Below the pieces are notes generated by a model, which ran no database searches, was not told the DNA's origin, and was given only the letters and a program-made list of their open reading frames with translations. A stretch of DNA of 57,947 bases from Verrucomicrobiota bacterium. Lineage in GTDB: Bacteria > Verrucomicrobiota > Verrucomicrobiia > Chthoniobacterales > UBA10450. The position numbers were made by a program, and so were the translations under genes. Location of the stretch: contig QHPG01000101.1 of the NCBI GenBank assembly GCA_003219005.1, positions 1 through 57,947 on the forward strand. The letters run 5' to 3'. How positions within the stretch are numbered: position 1 is the stretch's first letter; every line of letters begins with the position of its first letter. This document shows positions 7,675-38,990 of this stretch, in pieces.

Positions 7675-8570
7675 GATTTCGTTAGAACCAAAGCTCCCAG
7701 TAACAGTGGAAGATAAATGATCGACGCAAGGAACAGCAAACGCGCTGCGCTCGGCGTCCGCATCCGCAGGAAGCGCATTGCAACCGCGACGAATAAACCC
7801 CCGAGCAAAAGTTCGATTGCCAGATAGACAAAAGTCACGATTCCAAGAAACGCGGGCAGCCCCGCAATTACCAATAGCAGGATGCAGAAAAACACGCTCT
7901 GGCTGGCGCTGCGTTCGCCGCTGCGATCATCGCTTGAGATCATGCGAAAGCCTGCGCGCGAATAGTCTTCCCGGTACATCCACGCGATGGCGAAGAAATG
8001 CGGCAGTTGCCACAGAAAAACGATCGCAAAGAGAGCCCACGCTCCGGCGCCGATGTTTCCGCGCGCGGCCGCCCACCCGATCAGCGGCGGAATTGCGCCT
8101 GGGACTGCGCCCACCGCAGTGTTTGCAGTGCTGGCGCGCTTCAGAGGTGTGTAAGCAAAAATGTAAATCGCGACTGTTATTGCCGTTAGCGCCGCGCTCA
8201 GCGCATTGCAGACAATCGCCAGATACGCGACGCCAAAAACGGATAGAACGATCCCGAGCGCCAGCGCTTGCAGCGGCGGCATTCGCCCTGCCGGGATCGG
8301 GCGCATTTTTGTACGGCGCATGAGCGCGTCGGCTCTGCGTTCCCACCATTGATTGAGAGCGGCTGCGCCCGCTGCCGCCGCCGCCGTTCCGAATACAGCG
8401 TGAAACAGTGCGACGTAATTGATCGGCGACTCAGATCCCAGGTAAAAACCAACGGCAGTCGTAAGCAGCACCAGCAGCGTCAGACGCGCTTTGACGAGTT
8501 CTGCCAGATCGGCAACGACACGATTCCGCGGCGGCGCCACGTTGGCATTTTCAATCGCGACCGTTTTCAT
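7671..8570 (-). CDS. ctaB: protoheme IX farnesyltransferase (heme O synthase)
   Basis: UbiA-superfamily membrane prenyltransferase that adds farnesyl to heme b to make heme O. Recognisable by 'VKARLTLLVLLTTAVGF', 'NQWWERRADALMRRTKMRPIPAGR' (the first Asp-rich prenyl-diphosphate site, D...RT..RP) and 'LPHFFAIAWMYREDY'. About nine hydrophobic helices in 299 residues. The track ORF runs to 8981, but that part is antisense-like overlap with ctaA; the ATG at 8570 overlaps the ctaA stop by ATGA and yields the standard protein. Works directly before heme A synthase in the pathway. Confidence 0.95.
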   Translation of the reverse strand: MKTVAIENANVAPPRNRVVADLAELVKARLTLLVLLTTAVGFYLGSESPINYVALFHAVFGTAAAAAGAAALNQWWERRADALMRRTKMRPIPAGRMPPLQALALGIVLSVFGVAYLAIVCNALSAALTAITVAIYIFAYTPLKRASTANTAVGAVPGAIPPLIGWAAARGNIGAGAWALFAIVFLWQLPHFFAIAWMYREDYSRAGFRMISSDDRSGERSASQSVFFCILLLVIAGLPAFLGIVTFVYLAIELLLGGLFVAVAMRFLRMRTPSAARLLFLASIIYLPLLLGALVLTKS

Positions 8571-9628
8571 GCGGAGATTGGTAGGGCGCGAACTCCGGGA
8601 GTGCCGTGCAGCGATACCGCCAACATTCGCCAGCGAATCGCAGAAATGCTCACACCAAAAGATAGCATGATCGCGCCGAGCGCGACATGCGCCGTGGCGA
8701 CATCGGCTGCTTTGTTGCTCCAGATCACCCAGGCGCCGAGCGCGATCTGGCAAATGACCAACGCAACCCAAAGGATCGACAATCGCTTCAGCGCTGCGAA
8801 ACGCGGCGCATCTCTCCAAACGCGAAGAGCAAACGCGATCACAGCGATCGCGATGATGAACGCGAGAAATCTGTGCGCCATTTGCAGCCAGATTTGGAAT
8901 GCGGTCACGTCCGATAAGCCGCGGGCGTCGCGCCACGCGTTGAGCTTTGCGAGAGAAGCCGCGCTTGTGTCCGGGATCCACGCGCCGTTGGCTGTCGGAA
9001 AATCGAGAATCGACAGGTCGCGATGTTGATGGCGCATCGTTGCGCCAAGCGCGAGCTGTACGTAAATCACAATTGTGATTGCCATCGCCAATTGGACCAC
9101 TCTGAGATTGGCGTCTGACACAGACGCCCTACAATCCATCGCCTGCCAGAAATTTGTCGTCACTAGCGCAATCACTACGAGCAGCCCGAGAAAGGCCTGC
9201 GCAACACAGGCATGAAAGATTCCGATTTCATCTTTCATCATGGTGACGCGAAGGCCGCCAAGAATTCCCTGTAAGATCACGCCGACCAGCGCGATTACGC
9301 CCAAGTTGCGCACCCATCGTCGATGTTCGCTGAGCCAAAGCCAGACAGCGAGAATGATGGTCAGAAATCCAACGAGCGAGCCCATCAAGCGATGCGTGTG
9401 CTCGAATAAAATTCCGCCGACCCATTTCGAGACTGGAAACAAAAACATGTTGTAGCCGAACGTGGTCGGCCAATCGGGGACGGCGAGCCCGACATTTTTG
9501 CTGGTGACCATTCCGCCGCTGCAAATGAGTAAGAGCGTCGCGACGCATGTGAGCCACGCGAAACCATTGAGCCAATTGCTGGAGCGGCGGTCTATGACTG
9601 CCGAGTTTGCTAGCGTCGACTGTCGCAT
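8567..9628 (-). CDS. ctaA: heme A synthase (COX15/CtaA)
   Basis: Oxidises the C8 methyl of heme O to a formyl group, giving heme A for COX1. Eight hydrophobic helices; family motifs are 'CSGGMVTSKNVGLAVPDWP', 'FEHTHRLMGSLVG' and 'QMAHRFLAFIIA' with the heme-ligand histidines. A loop near residues 166-173 reads CRASVS and is encoded by a palindromic repeat arm (see repeat 9110-9133), which looks like an in-frame insertion between helices. ATG 9628 chosen; the track start is a TTG two codons earlier. Stop overlaps ctaB (ATGA). Confidence 0.93.
   Translation of the reverse strand: MRQSTLANSAVIDRRSSNWLNGFAWLTCVATLLLICSGGMVTSKNVGLAVPDWPTTFGYNMFLFPVSKWVGGILFEHTHRLMGSLVGFLTIILAVWLWLSEHRRWVRNLGVIALVGVILQGILGGLRVTMMKDEIGIFHACVAQAFLGLLVVIALVTTNFWQAMDCRASVSDANLRVVQLAMAITIVIYVQLALGATMRHQHRDLSILDFPTANGAWIPDTSAASLAKLNAWRDARGLSDVTAFQIWLQMAHRFLAFIIAIAVIAFALRVWRDAPRFAALKRLSILWVALVICQIALGAWVIWSNKAADVATAHVALGAIMLSFGVSISAIRWRMLAVSLHGTPGVRALPISA
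9110..9133. repeat. palindromic repeat arm inside ctaA
   Basis: GGCGTCTG-ACA-CAGACGCC is a perfect hairpin, followed by CTACA. On the minus strand the 19 nt TGTAGGGCGTCTGTGTCAG are identical to 17316-17334 inside the FAD/Fe-S oxidase gene and are read in the same frame. Confidence 0.75.
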
Positions 9629-9637
9629 TGACAATCC

Positions 9638-15130: not shown

Positions 15131-15150
15131 CGGAACTATTTGGCTGTAAC

Positions 15151-15225
15151 TGTCATGTTGAGCGGAGCGAAACATCTCTGATTATTTCCTCAAGCTCGAG
15201 ATTCTTCGCTTCGCTCAGAATGACA
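15151..15225. repeat. palindromic repeat, TGTCATTCTGAGCGAAG family (copy 1)
   Basis: Long inverted repeat: TGTCATGTTGAGCGGAGCG at the left and its near-complement CGCTTCGCTCAGAATGACA at the right, with an AT-rich centre. The right end is 2 nt from the ATG of the FAD oxidase gene, so the mRNA leader would fold into this hairpin. Related copies at 23171-23203 (half) and 38875-38969. Confidence 0.8.
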
Positions 15226-15227
15226 AA

Positions 15228-18119
15228 ATGACTTCCGCGCAGGAAAGGAAAATCAAGCAAACGGGGTGCGACGCGCGCTTTGATAATCTGACGCGTCAAC
15301 TATACGCGACTGACGCGTCCATTTATCAAATCGAGCCGGTAGGCGTCGCATTTCCGAAAAGTGCACAAGAGGCAAGTCTCGTTATCCGCGCAGCGGCTGA
15401 CGCGGGTTTTTCGGTGACGCCGCGTGGCGCCGGCACGAGTCTGGTTGGAAGTGCGATTGGCGAAGGATTGATCGTTGATTTTTCGCGCTATAACCGCCAG
15501 ATCACCGATCTCGATCTGGAAAAGCGCAGCGTGCGTGTCGAAGCGGGCGTGGTGCTCGACCAGCTCAACGATTTTCTGAGGCCGCACGGATTTTGCTTTG
15601 GCCCGGACGTCGCCACCAGCTCGCGCGCAACGCTGGGCGGAATGATTGCCAACAATTCCTCAGGCGCGCGTTGTCCTATCTACGGAACGACAGCCGATCA
15701 CGTTCGGTCGCTCGAAATCGTGATGGCCGATGGTCGGGTCGAAAAGATCGGCCAGACGCATGCATCATTGCGCAGCGAGCGCGCGAAGATTGAGGATTTC
15801 GTTCGCGCAGCGAAGTCAGAGATGACCGAGCGCTGGCCGCCGGGCTTGATCAAACGCTGGCCGGGTTACGGCATCGAGGGGTTCCTGCGCGCGCCGAATG
15901 ATCTCACCAATATTCTCGCCGGCAGCGAAGGCACGCTCGCCGCGATTTTCTCCGCCGAACTCAAGATCTCTCCGCTCCCGCGCGAAAAAGGATTGGGACT
16001 GATCTTCTTCGCATCAGTTGGAGAAGCGATGCAGGCCACCGTCGAGCTTCTCGATCTCAAGCCTACGGCGATTGAACACATCGATCGGCCTTTGCTCGAT
16101 CAAACCAAAGGCCAACTCCATTTTCAGGCGGCGCGTGATTTGCTCGAATTGGATTCAAAACCGTGCGAAGCGATTTTGATCGTCGAGTTCTACGACGAGA
16201 TTGCAGAGCGGTTGTCGATCTTGGAATCGAGAAAGATCGGGCTGCGCACGAAAATTCTGAGCGACCCGGCGCAGATGAATCTGGTCTGGTCGGTGCGCAA
16301 ATCTGGTCTCTCGCTTTTGACCGGCTGCATTGGGCCAGCAAAGCCGGTCGCATTCATTGAAGACGCTGCGGTGCGCCCGGCGCAACTGCCCGAATACGTG
16401 CGCGGACTGCAGTCGATCATGGAACCGCTCGGGCTGGAGGCGAGTTACTACGGCCATGCTGCCAGCGGATTGTTGCATGTCCGGCCTGTGCTCGATCTGC
16501 ATAGGGCGTCCGATCTGAAAAAATTCCGGCAAGTCGCTGATCAAACCTCGGCGCTGGTGCGGCAATTCAAAGGTTCGCTCTCCGCCGAGCACGGTGTCGG
16601 CATCGCGCGCACCGAATACATGCGCGACCAACTCGGCGACGAGCTCTTTGAAGTCTTGCGCGAGATTAAGCGCACATTCGATCCGAAGAACGTTTTTAAT
16701 CCTGGGAAATTTTTCAGCGACGGTCGCCACAAGATCGACAACCATTTGCGCGAAAACTTCACGCGCTCGCTCGAGCTTCCATTTCAACCGGTGCTCGCAT
16801 TCGCGTTCAAGGACCGCTCCTTCATCGGCAACCTCGAGCAATGCAACGGCTGCGGCGGCTGCCTCAAACAGACCGGCATCATGTGCCCAACCTTCATGGC
16901 CACTGGCGAGGAGGTCATGTCCACGCGCGGCCGCGCCAACATCATTCGCGCAGCCCTTGAGCTGCACGTAAACGGACGCGATGCCTTGAAATCCGAAGAA
17001 CTGGACGCCGCGCTGAGCAATTGTCTTTCCTGCAAAGGTTGCACGCCCGAATGCCCGTCGAACGTCAATCTCGCTCTCTTGAAAGCACAGATGCTTCACG
17101 CGCGGTGGCGGCGCGATGGCCTACCGTTACGCGAGCGAATCTTTAGCAACGTCGATGTGCTCGGACGAATCGGTTGCGCGGTGCGGGCGCTGGCAAATCC
17201 GATTCTCGACGTCAAGCCGTTGCGCGCGTTAATGGAGACAGCGCTTGGAATATCCGCGAAGCGCTCATTGCAACATTACGCACGCGAACGATTTGATCGC
17301 TGGTTTGCGCGACATTGTAGGGCGTCTGTGTCAGTCCCGAAAGCGTTCGGGATTCACAGAAACGCCCTACAGAAGCGTGGTCCCGTGATCCTTTGGGACG
17401 ACACCTTTGTGCGCTATCACGAACCGCACATTGGCATCGCCGCAGTAAAAGTTCTCGAAGCACTGGGGTTCGAGGTTGCGTTCGTGAAAAATCGGCGCTG
17501 CTGCGGACGACCAGCATTCAGCGTCGGAAATCTCGATGCCGCCGCGAAACTCGGCAAACACAACATTGCGCTTCTAAATTCTTCCACTTCTCACCTCTCG
17601 CCTCTCACGTCTCAACAATCGGCGCCGCCGATCTTATTCCTCGAGCCCTCTTGCTGGTCGATGTTCGTGGAGGATTATCGCGAGCTAAATATCGAAGGCG
17701 CAGACGACGTAGCGAAGCGCTGTTTCCTGTTCGAAAAATTTATTGACGATCTGCTCGCGCAAGAACCAGATGCACTTCAATTCGTCGAACGTCCGGCAAC
17801 CATTGCGATTCATCCGCATTGCCACGCAAAGTCGATCATGGATGCGACTTTCATGCGCAGACTGGCGGAACGCTTGCCGGGCAGGAAAGCCACCGTACTC
17901 GACACTGCGTGTTGCGGAATGGCAGGCGCATTTGGCGCACTCGCAGAGAAATACGACCTTTCCGTCCAGGTCGCCCAGCGCTTGCTCAACGCAATCGACA
18001 ATCAGCCGCCTGAGACAGAAATCGTCGCCTCAGGCACAAGTTGCCGCCATCAAATCACTGATCTAAGCAACGCGCGCCCAAAACACATGGCCGAGTTGCT
18101 CGCTGAAGCAATTGTGTGA
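15228..18119 (+). CDS. FAD-linked oxidase / Fe-S oxidoreductase fusion (D-2-hydroxyacid dehydrogenase type)
   Basis: A 963-residue fusion of a GlcD/DLD-like flavin half and a GlpC-like half, as in YdiJ-type D-2-hydroxyacid (for example D-lactate) dehydrogenases. FAD_binding_4 covers about 35-180 ('TPRGAGTSLVGS'), the C-terminal oxidase domain about 210-490 ('SAEHGVGIARTEY'), then two Fe-S clusters ('CNGCGGC', 'CLSCKGCTPECP') and two CCG-domain motifs ('CCGRPAF', 'CCGMAGAFG'). Two stretches look inserted in frame: residues about 697-715, encoded by a perfect palindromic repeat, and about 784-798, Ser/Leu/Pro-rich from a CT-rich repeat. Both are in linkers. Passes electrons to quinone or a cytochrome, inferred. 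Confidence 0.92.
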   Translation: MTSAQERKIKQTGCDARFDNLTRQLYATDASIYQIEPVGVAFPKSAQEASLVIRAAADAGFSVTPRGAGTSLVGSAIGEGLIVDFSRYNRQITDLDLEKRSVRVEAGVVLDQLNDFLRPHGFCFGPDVATSSRATLGGMIANNSSGARCPIYGTTADHVRSLEIVMADGRVEKIGQTHASLRSERAKIEDFVRAAKSEMTERWPPGLIKRWPGYGIEGFLRAPNDLTNILAGSEGTLAAIFSAELKISPLPREKGLGLIFFASVGEAMQATVELLDLKPTAIEHIDRPLLDQTKGQLHFQAARDLLELDSKPCEAILIVEFYDEIAERLSILESRKIGLRTKILSDPAQMNLVWSVRKSGLSLLTGCIGPAKPVAFIEDAAVRPAQLPEYVRGLQSIMEPLGLEASYYGHAASGLLHVRPVLDLHRASDLKKFRQVADQTSALVRQFKGSLSAEHGVGIARTEYMRDQLGDELFEVLREIKRTFDPKNVFNPGKFFSDGRHKIDNHLRENFTRSLELPFQPVLAFAFKDRSFIGNLEQCNGCGGCLKQTGIMCPTFMATGEEVMSTRGRANIIRAALELHVNGRDALKSEELDAALSNCLSCKGCTPECPSNVNLALLKAQMLHARWRRDGLPLRERIFSNVDVLGRIGCAVRALANPILDVKPLRALMETALGISAKRSLQHYARERFDRWFARHCRASVSVPKAFGIHRNALQKRGPVILWDDTFVRYHEPHIGIAAVKVLEALGFEVAFVKNRRCCGRPAFSVGNLDAAAKLGKHNIALLNSSTSHLSPLTSQQSAPPILFLEPSCWSMFVEDYRELNIEGADDVAKRCFLFEKFIDDLLAQEPDALQFVERPATIAIHPHCHAKSIMDATFMRRLAERLPGRKATVLDTACCGMAGAFGALAEKYDLSVQVAQRLLNAIDNQPPETEIVASGTSCRHQITDLSNARPKHMAELLAEAIV
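17316..17371. repeat. palindromic repeat inserted in-frame in the FAD/Fe-S oxidase gene
   Basis: TGTAGGGCGT..CTGTG at the left pairs with CACAG..ACGCCCTACA at the right, and the centre TCCCGAA-AGCG-TTCGGGA is a perfect hairpin. It encodes about 19 residues without a stop, between the Fe-S and CCG domains. Its first 19 nt equal the arm in ctaA. Confidence 0.85.
17579..17620. repeat. CT-rich tandem segment inside the FAD/Fe-S oxidase gene
   Basis: Degenerate repeats of CTTCTCACCTCTCGCCTCTCACGT type encode SSTSHLSPLTSQQS in the CCG domain just before 'LFLEPSCW'. Family members usually go straight from 'HNIALLN' into 'FLEPSC', so I read this as a second in-frame insertion. Confidence 0.5.
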
Positions 18120-31839: not shown

Positions 31840-32274
31840 ATGCACGTAGCCTCACCCATTCCTCACAAAAAAGCGCGGATCGAGATCATCCCGTTGATCG
31901 ACATCATGTTCTTTTTGCTCGCCAGTTTCATGATGGTGAGCTTGAGCCAGGTGCACATGAAAGGGGTGAAGGTGAACTTGCCATCGGGCGTTTCGGGTGA
32001 GACGCAGACAAAGCGCGAGTACCTCAGTGTATCGGTCGATAAAGACGGTCATTACTTTTTCGACAAAGACGAAGTCGGCGACGACGAGCTGCTGAATCGT
32101 ATGCGCAAAGCTCACCAAGCAGCCCCTGAAGCGAAAGTGTTTCTTCGGGGCGATCGGGAGTCGGCCCATCTGAACGTTGCCCATGCGCTCGAAATAATCC
32201 GCGCGTCCGGCTACTATAAAGTCTCGTTCGAAATTAAGAGCGAATCGCTGAAGGGAGTTCCTGGAGCCCGGTAA
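31840..32274 (+). CDS. exbD: ExbD/TolR-type biopolymer transport protein, first copy
   Basis: 144 residues with one N-terminal helix carrying the conserved aspartate of the proton path ('IEIIPLIDIMFFLLASFMM') and a periplasmic domain ending 'VSFEIKSES'. Works with ExbB. Nine nt after exbB with AAGG upstream of the ATG, and 6 nt before tonB. Its first 60 residues are nearly identical to the second ExbD at 32927, pointing to a duplication. Confidence 0.93.
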   Translation: MHVASPIPHKKARIEIIPLIDIMFFLLASFMMVSLSQVHMKGVKVNLPSGVSGETQTKREYLSVSVDKDGHYFFDKDEVGDDELLNRMRKAHQAAPEAKVFLRGDRESAHLNVAHALEIIRASGYYKVSFEIKSESLKGVPGAR

Positions 32275-32908: not shown

Positions 32909-33394
32909 ATGCAACTTTCATCGCCAGTTCCGCATAAAAGAGCACGCATCGAAATTATTCCATTGATTGACATCATGTTCTTTCTGCTTGCCAGCTTCAT
33001 GATGGTGAGCCTGAGCCAGACGCACATGAAAGGAATCCGGGTCAACTTGCCGGCTGCGCAGGGGCCTCCGCCAACTGGCCAACTAGATTTCGTCACCGTA
33101 AAAGTGCTGGAGGGGAACGCGATATTTTTCAATAACGAGTTCGTCCAAGACGACCAAGTGCTTCCGCGGCTTTTTGAGCTGCACCGAGGGAACCCGGACG
33201 TTAAACTGTCTCTCAGCGCAGCGCCCAAGGCCGTGTACGGTGACGTCGTCGGCGTGCTCGATAAAATTCGGCAGGTTGGAATTACAAAAGTCGGATACCA
33301 GATCAGAGCAGCTTCTGGAGTGGGTGGTGGCTCAGCTGCGCCTCCAGGCGCTCCACCGCCACAGGGAGCGCCGCCACCACCGCCCGGGCCTTAA
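32909..33394 (+). CDS. ExbD/TolR-type protein, second copy with proline-rich tail
   Basis: 161 residues. Same N-terminal helix as the first copy ('IEIIPLIDIMFFLLASFMM' and 'HMKGIRVNLP'), a diverged periplasmic domain, and a C-terminal tail of Gly/Pro/Ala (GGSAAPPGAPPPQGAPPPPP) missing in the first. Possibly forms heteromeric ExbD pairs with copy 1 or serves a second channel. Its stop overlaps the stop of rdgB by 4 nt (tail to tail). Confidence 0.92.
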   Translation: MQLSSPVPHKRARIEIIPLIDIMFFLLASFMMVSLSQTHMKGIRVNLPAAQGPPPTGQLDFVTVKVLEGNAIFFNNEFVQDDQVLPRLFELHRGNPDVKLSLSAAPKAVYGDVVGVLDKIRQVGITKVGYQIRAASGVGGGSAAPPGAPPPQGAPPPPPGP

Positions 33395-38822: not shown

Positions 38823-38874
38823 AACCTCAACGTCGCGGCTGCCCACGAGACATTTCCACAAGCCGATCTCATAT

Positions 38875-38969
38875 TGTCATTCTGAGCGAAGCGAAGAATC
38901 TCAGATCAATTTTGGCTGATCCTCCCAACGGGAACAGGCCAGAGATATTTCGCTTCGCTCAACATGACA
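38875..38969. repeat. palindromic repeat, TGTCATTCTGAGCGAAG family (copy 3)
   Basis: TGTCATTCTGAGCGAAGCG at the left, CGCTTCGCTCAACATGACA at the right. Between convergent galE and the heptosyltransferase gene. Confidence 0.8.
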
Positions 38970-38990
38970 GCGCCATTTATGAGACGAATG

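Follow-up and report, generated by a model that had tools for sequence, protein, structure and literature searches.

A genus-specific GTAG-class REPIN read in frame within a verrucomicrobial FAD-linked oxidase, and the varied fillings of the same linker in related species

REP sequences owe their name to their extragenic location. In the GTAG superfamily of these elements the GTAG tag sits at the 5' foot of the hairpin, inverted dimers are formed and most copies are intergenic, often supplying the stop codon of the neighboring gene, while some lie in frame within genes, DNA repair genes included (PMC3733652). Such intragenic GTAG REPs were reported in 2013 as being most abundant in the verrucomicrobium Opitutus terrae, and the same study found different REPs at about the same recB site in two Xanthomonas species (PMC3733652). 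REPINs comprise two inverted REPs and a short spacer that together act as one hairpin unit, and they occur alongside RAYT genes and single REPs (PMC3116915). The group 3 REPtron of S. maltophilia has a 23-nt REP with GTAG, an 8-bp perfect stem and a 3-nt loop (PMC8266576), and the Rickettsia-type palindromic elements (RPEs) are palindromes translated in frame as part of many unrelated housekeeping proteins (reviewed in PMC10969869). Counterparts of these traits are found in the genome described below, where the element family of interest is termed F1. It was encountered in a stretch of 57,947 nt (the window) on contig QHPG01000101.1 of a Verrucomicrobiota bacterium, whose genome is a draft MAG of 2.69 Mb with 86% completeness.

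The element at 17316-17371 of the forward strand reads TGTAGGGCGTCTGTGTCAGTCCCGAAAGCGTTCGGGATTCACAGAAACGCCCTACA. A sequence-only reading of this DNA had correctly pointed out its TGTAG...CTACA ends and inner hairpin, and had described the 56-bp inverted repeat as perfect; in fact the arms, which flank a 4-nt loop, are complementary at 22 of their 26 positions, giving a strong yet imperfect palindrome. Its predicted fold has an energy of -21 kcal/mol against -6.0 +/- 2.2 for shuffled versions (z ~ -7), with none of 200 shuffles being as stable. A BLAST search of its own genome recovered five more copies of this particular form at 91-96% identity, making six close copies in all. The readings of the element that were considered and rejected are a chance palindrome, an assembly chimera, a tandem repeat and a conserved insertion domain. 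The relevant features of the window are as follows:

15228..18119, + strand: host gene, an FAD-linked oxidase with 4Fe-4S and CCG domains, 963 aa, YdiJ/GlcD-GlpC-like, below the NCBIfam equivalog cut-offs
17307..17375, + strand: hypervariable linker slot, residues 694-716, between the conserved W692-F693 and R717-G718; in relatives it holds different palindromes or is empty
17316..17371, + strand: F1-type GTAG REP dimer (REPIN), a derived subform with the inner hairpin TCCCGAA-AGCG-TTCGGGA, recognized from its sequence, its fold and five other genomic copies
17316..17334, + strand: left REP remnant, TGTAG-GGCGTCTG-TGT-CAG (a canonical unit goes on ACGCC)
17353..17371, - strand: right REP remnant, in the minus-strand reading TGTAG-GGCGTTTC-TGT-GAA (a canonical unit goes on ACGCC)

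In this copy TCCCGAAAGCGTTCGGGA stands in place of the inner halves of both units, so that two canonical hairpins are merged into one; on account of this merger the copy may have lost its status as a RAYT substrate.

The element lies inside a single open frame and codes for residues 697-715 of the oxidase (CRASVSVPKAFGIHRNALQ), between the Fer4 (536-613) and CCG (728-785) domains detected with Pfam. The named homologues of this oxidase come from soil Verrucomicrobia MAGs, one of which is labelled Candidatus Udaeobacter. The earlier statement that some 19 residues were added in frame between the Fe-S and CCG domains is right as to the open frame and the residues encoded, and wrong as to the addition: 56 nt is not a multiple of three, making a clean in-frame insertion impossible. 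Between fixed protein anchors the window has a linker of 78 nt, where most relatives outside the order-level group have one of 39 nt; the net gain is about 13 residues, and the frame is kept because the 56-nt element is accompanied by 22 nt of residual linker. In an AF2 model of modest overall quality (pTM 0.53) the pLDDT falls below 50 at residues 693-714, as would be expected of a flexible linker, and the PDB templates among the matches listed covered the FAD domains alone. The sole match in an Rfam search of the region, near 15151-15225, was sub-threshold and is probably due to chance.

Two further repeats were observed in the window. Another dispersed repeat, with the core TGTCATTCTGAGCGAAGCGAAGAATCTC, has 34 copies in the 1.06 Mb sampled from the genome, and no called gene contains any of them; inverted paired copies of it occupy 15150-15216 and 38862-38970, one such pair lying just 5' of the oxidase gene. 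Positions 31840-31982 and 32909-33051 form a 143-nt direct repeat with 79% identity, probably a local gene duplication.

F1 is dispersed through the genome in more than 30 copies. The 13-mer TGTAGGGCGTCTG, with at most one mismatch, has 36 matches as against 3 for the reversed control pattern; BLAST with the element gives 49 matches at E<=10, and the exact 19-mer TGTAGGGCGTCTGTGTCAG would be expected about 3e-6 times in a genome of this size. With one mismatch permitted, every one of the 35 genomes of this genus, counting that of the window, contains the 19-mer TGTAGGGCGTNTGTGTCAG, and all 23 genomes from other genera of the same family and order lack it; nearly all of the genomes compared are draft MAGs. 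No F1 was found in plasmids, searched at E<=0.01, or in viral_contigs, scanned for exact matches. Most copies are canonical dimers of the form TGTAG-GGCGTCTG-TGT-CAGACGCC-spacer-GGCGTTTC-ACA-GAAACGCC-CTACA, wherein each 23-nt unit consists of GTAG, an 8-bp stem and a 3-nt (TGT) loop, and the two units are inverted. Two stem positions distinguish the unit types from each other, the changes being compensatory on both sides. An unbiased scan over a 1.06 Mb sample of the genome shows GTAG to be enriched 7.4-fold just 5' of hairpins (118 cases), second to the overlapping TGTA at 7.6-fold. The canonical dimers are thus inverted REP pairs forming one hairpin unit, as REPINs are, with the window copy a merged derivative, and F1 has the GTAG tag at the 5' foot and the high-copy, dispersed, mainly extragenic distribution of the GTAG class. 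F1 is a new family of GTAG-class REPs/REPINs, restricted to one genus among the genomes tested.

The sequence-only reading had taken the RPEs for the closest parallel. In-frame insertion in unrelated housekeeping genes is indeed an RPE hallmark (PMC10969869), and F1 too is read in frame within unrelated genes. Nevertheless, the GTAG tag, the 23-nt units, the inverted dimers and the RAYT genes of this genome point to the GTAG REP class, of which the anatomy of F1 is an exact instance, whereas the intragenic RPE-4 and RPE-6 of R. conorii belong to the CGTC class (PMC3733652), whose tag was not seen in the window element with its TGTAG/CTACA termini. Membership in an RPE-type family is therefore highly unlikely, and the intragenic GTAG REPs published for Opitutus terrae (PMC3733652) supply the description within the phylum of which that reading had known none.

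A second F1 copy in the window lies in an unrelated gene on the opposite strand:

8567..9634, - strand: host gene, COX15/CtaA
9110..9133, - strand: single canonical F1 REP, TGTAG-GGCGTCTG-TGT-CAGACGCC, in frame as CRASVSDA

The 19-nt identity between the oxidase element and ctaA noted previously extends to 21 nt at 100% (9115-9135, minus strand), and both proteins read it in the same codon phase as CRASVS, as had been stated. This 24-nt REP entails no net change in length relative to most orthologues, indicating that an equal length was replaced. The notion that an element was simply added also fails in three genes in which the place occupied by the element has lost about 17-21 nt of the former linker. 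A few congeners have other insertions near the CtaA site.

To what extent REPs enter genes was assessed in the 1.06 Mb sample, which was partly selected for contigs with matches, using a home-made codon-usage gene caller. The 118 GTAG hairpins therein fall between genes in 72 cases, within called genes in 33 (some of these being chance hairpins) and at gene ends in 13, where the tag frequently provides the stop codon; the F1 dimers comprise 14 intergenic copies, 5 at gene edges and 3 in genes. Besides the oxidase, the clear in-frame cases include CtaA, IspG (an F1 dimer), PurL (two dimers) and ArgS (a single REP), together with DnaX, UvrD and an ABC exporter, each of which has an F2 dimer; these proteins were recognized by their Pfam domains. 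A second FAD/Fe-S oxidase is a further case. F1 is read as CRASVS in the oxidase, CtaA and IspG, in the same phase in all three, and two of its three forward frames avoid TAG. A different dispersed repeat, GAGCGAAGCGAAGAATCTC, has 34 copies of which none is in a called gene, as against 10 of 49 GTAG dimers (p = 0.004). These observations bear out the sequence-only view of a dispersed, selfish-type element tolerated within genes, with more than 30 copies that are mostly intergenic and some in frame in conserved genes. Neither of the outcomes named as speaking against that view was obtained: further genomic copies exist in that number, and the residues at the site differ among orthologues.

Dimers of the family F2 (GTAGCCGGG...) are found in genes about as often as outside them, and encode linkers of the pattern VAG(x)xDPG...DPGYS. 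It could be argued that Gly/Pro-rich REP peptides of this kind were domesticated, i.e. selected as flexible linkers, and the in-gene excess of F2 dimers (7/15 versus 3/34 for F1 and F3 together; Fisher p = 0.005), all in a single codon phase, agrees with this. However, only one forward frame of F2 is open, and this alone dictates the phase; further, sister species do not conserve the peptide, in most relatives outside the group the linker functions without it, and the sample is small. We consider domestication improbable, and regard the encoded peptides as probably near-neutral.

The genome has four Y1_Tnp matches. One of these, L061, scores 112.5 bits against a cut-off of 80 with the NCBIfam model NF047646 (REP-associated tyrosine transposase) and is adjoined on one side by the GTAG hairpin GTAGCCGGGATC-GGT-GATCCCGG; L062 and L063 fall below that cut-off and have GTAG hairpins on both flanks. 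The genome thus contains REP-flanked RAYT genes, as expected for REPINs and REPtrons. The RAYT-like frame of L063 (1264-1917) seems to extend on either side into the GTAG hairpins that flank it. No RAYT lies beside an F1 copy among the matches listed for F1 and Y1_Tnp and the RAYT loci scanned in this 86% complete genome, and it is for this reason that we infer, rather than observe, the mobilization of F1 by a RAYT. By analogy with the known class, F1 REPINs would be non-autonomous hairpins that spread as single-stranded DNA by means of RAYT (Y1 HUH) transposases. Most copies would settle intergenically, and those landing in flexible interdomain linkers with an open frame would persist, because the resulting peptide of about 16-28 residues is tolerated.

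To better understand the history of the oxidase site, its linker was compared across orthologues. In relatives outside a Chthoniobacterales-like group it is mostly 39 nt between the anchors and has no inserted palindrome. Within this group the shortest linkers, which are empty, have 36 nt and the longest 144-162 nt, and the fillings comprise F1 as well as several further GTAG families, composites and palindromes without GTAG, so that nearly the same nucleotide position is filled differently, or is empty, across related species. All observed linkers keep the frame with the sole exception of L216 (G030:C106), where 103 nt between the anchors entail a loss of frame, implying that this oxidase may be broken or split. 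In L204, L205 and L211 a non-GTAG palindromic repeat (TCATCCCGAGCGAAGTCGA...) lies in frame in the same slot; hence, not every filling is explicable by RAYTs, and the tolerance of the linker matters too. Comparable variation is seen elsewhere: at the IspG and ABC exporter sites congeners have different palindromes or none, while other genera have a short, near-constant linker. The IspG linkers of L386 and L390 contain in-frame GAATGACGAATGACGAAAG...CGTCATTC repeats and those of L368 and L370 tandem GGATTGC repeats.

The boundaries of the fillings are near-identical across species. Of 17 oxidases with both TGTAG and CTACA ends, 15 have their TGTAG start within a single 3-nt bin, which was matched by none of 100,000 uniform placements under the assumptions of uniform insertion and independent rows. 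The residual linker follows the length of the element, with those of 50, 56, 71, 80 and 122 nt (all 2 mod 3) mostly leaving 22 nt and those of 0 mod 3 leaving 24-27 nt. In a tree of 58 oxidase orthologues built with the linker excluded the families are unclustered and 28 changes are needed; one row, L224, was scored as F2 by a loose motif while its 39-nt linker is actually empty, which leaves the conclusion unaffected. Composites in the oxidase linker, for example an F3 remnant followed by an F1 dimer, show that one REP has entered another. From the constant boundaries together with the composites we infer REP-for-REP exchange. A filled linker would accordingly become a reusable slot, in which the resident REP is replaced by, or fused with, members of other REP families via the common TGTAG/CTACA ends, and selection would retain only the frame-preserving products.

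Fixed boundaries would also be expected if the elements favored a particular target site or if the slot was inherited. The steps of spread and linker survival follow the known REP class; for the step of exchange, insertion at a preferred target is the foremost alternative. A related alternative is that the linker is the sole tolerant place, where any repeat that happens to land persists and no element is exchanged for another. The non-GTAG palindromes in the oxidase slot, the other repeats (L386, L390) or tandem GGATTGC in the IspG linkers of some congeners, and the interspersion of empty oxidase linkers on the tree are all compatible with such independent insertions; against them stand the match of boundaries within a few nucleotides across families, the constant leftover linker and the presence of REPs within REPs. 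We hold this explanation to be doubtful, albeit one to be taken seriously. A further possibility is that the hairpin itself functions as a nucleic acid, e.g. in translational pausing at the domain boundary or in mRNA stability, with structure being kept and sequence exchangeable. The strong folding of all the different families at the oxidase site, and the location of that site at a domain boundary, are in its favor, but a strong hairpin is lacking there in several Chthoniobacterales and in almost every other relative, and the CtaA and ABC exporter sites are frequently without one as well, which makes such a function very improbable. Short repeats can cause misassembly of MAGs, which raises the prospect of contigs falsely joined at a repeat. 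In this case, however, both flanks belong to one protein that aligns end-to-end with orthologues which were obtained in several independent studies and have elements at this very site, and an assembly artefact is scarcely credible.

The reading that we favor, with a probability of roughly four in five, is that the palindrome is a genus-specific GTAG-class REPIN and that the linkers serve as reusable, frame-selected slots with REP turnover. A stronger version can be put forward tentatively: in Udaeobacter-like Verrucomicrobiota the interdomain linkers of housekeeping enzymes might be frame-filtered cassette slots in which REPINs are swapped at the GTAG/CTAC ends that they share, RAYT cleavage or conversion being the probable route, such that transposon-derived peptide is continually reshuffled between species. 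REPs have repeatedly entered essential enzymes (IspG, PurL, ArgS, DnaX) in frame, and across dozens of species one and the same linker has received different families, amounting to a replicated natural experiment in the creation of protein sequence by mobile DNA. A comparison of close relatives in which a given site is empty or filled also offers a way to ask whether RAYTs exchange REPs.

A full-text search of the papers available found no paper on palindromes in Udaeobacter, and it is from the systems described in other organisms that F1 has to be distinguished. Compared with the GTAG REP superfamily at large (PMC3733652), F1 is confined to one soil genus among the genomes tested and has a subform with a merged inner hairpin, and the reuse of slots extends here across dozens of species and three genes. 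It differs from the REPINs (PMC3116915) in lying partly in genes, in its short spacer (~9-14 nt) and in that no RAYT adjoins F1 among the matches listed. The stem sequence differs from that of the S. maltophilia REPtron (PMC8266576). The RPEs, which are ~150 bp long (PMC10969869) with the short ones tagged by CGTC (PMC3733652), are set apart by their descriptions from F1 with its GTAG and 23-nt units. Thus, intragenic GTAG REPs as such were already known, and what is new is the genus-specific family, its merged subform and the turnover of slots in multiple species and multiple genes.
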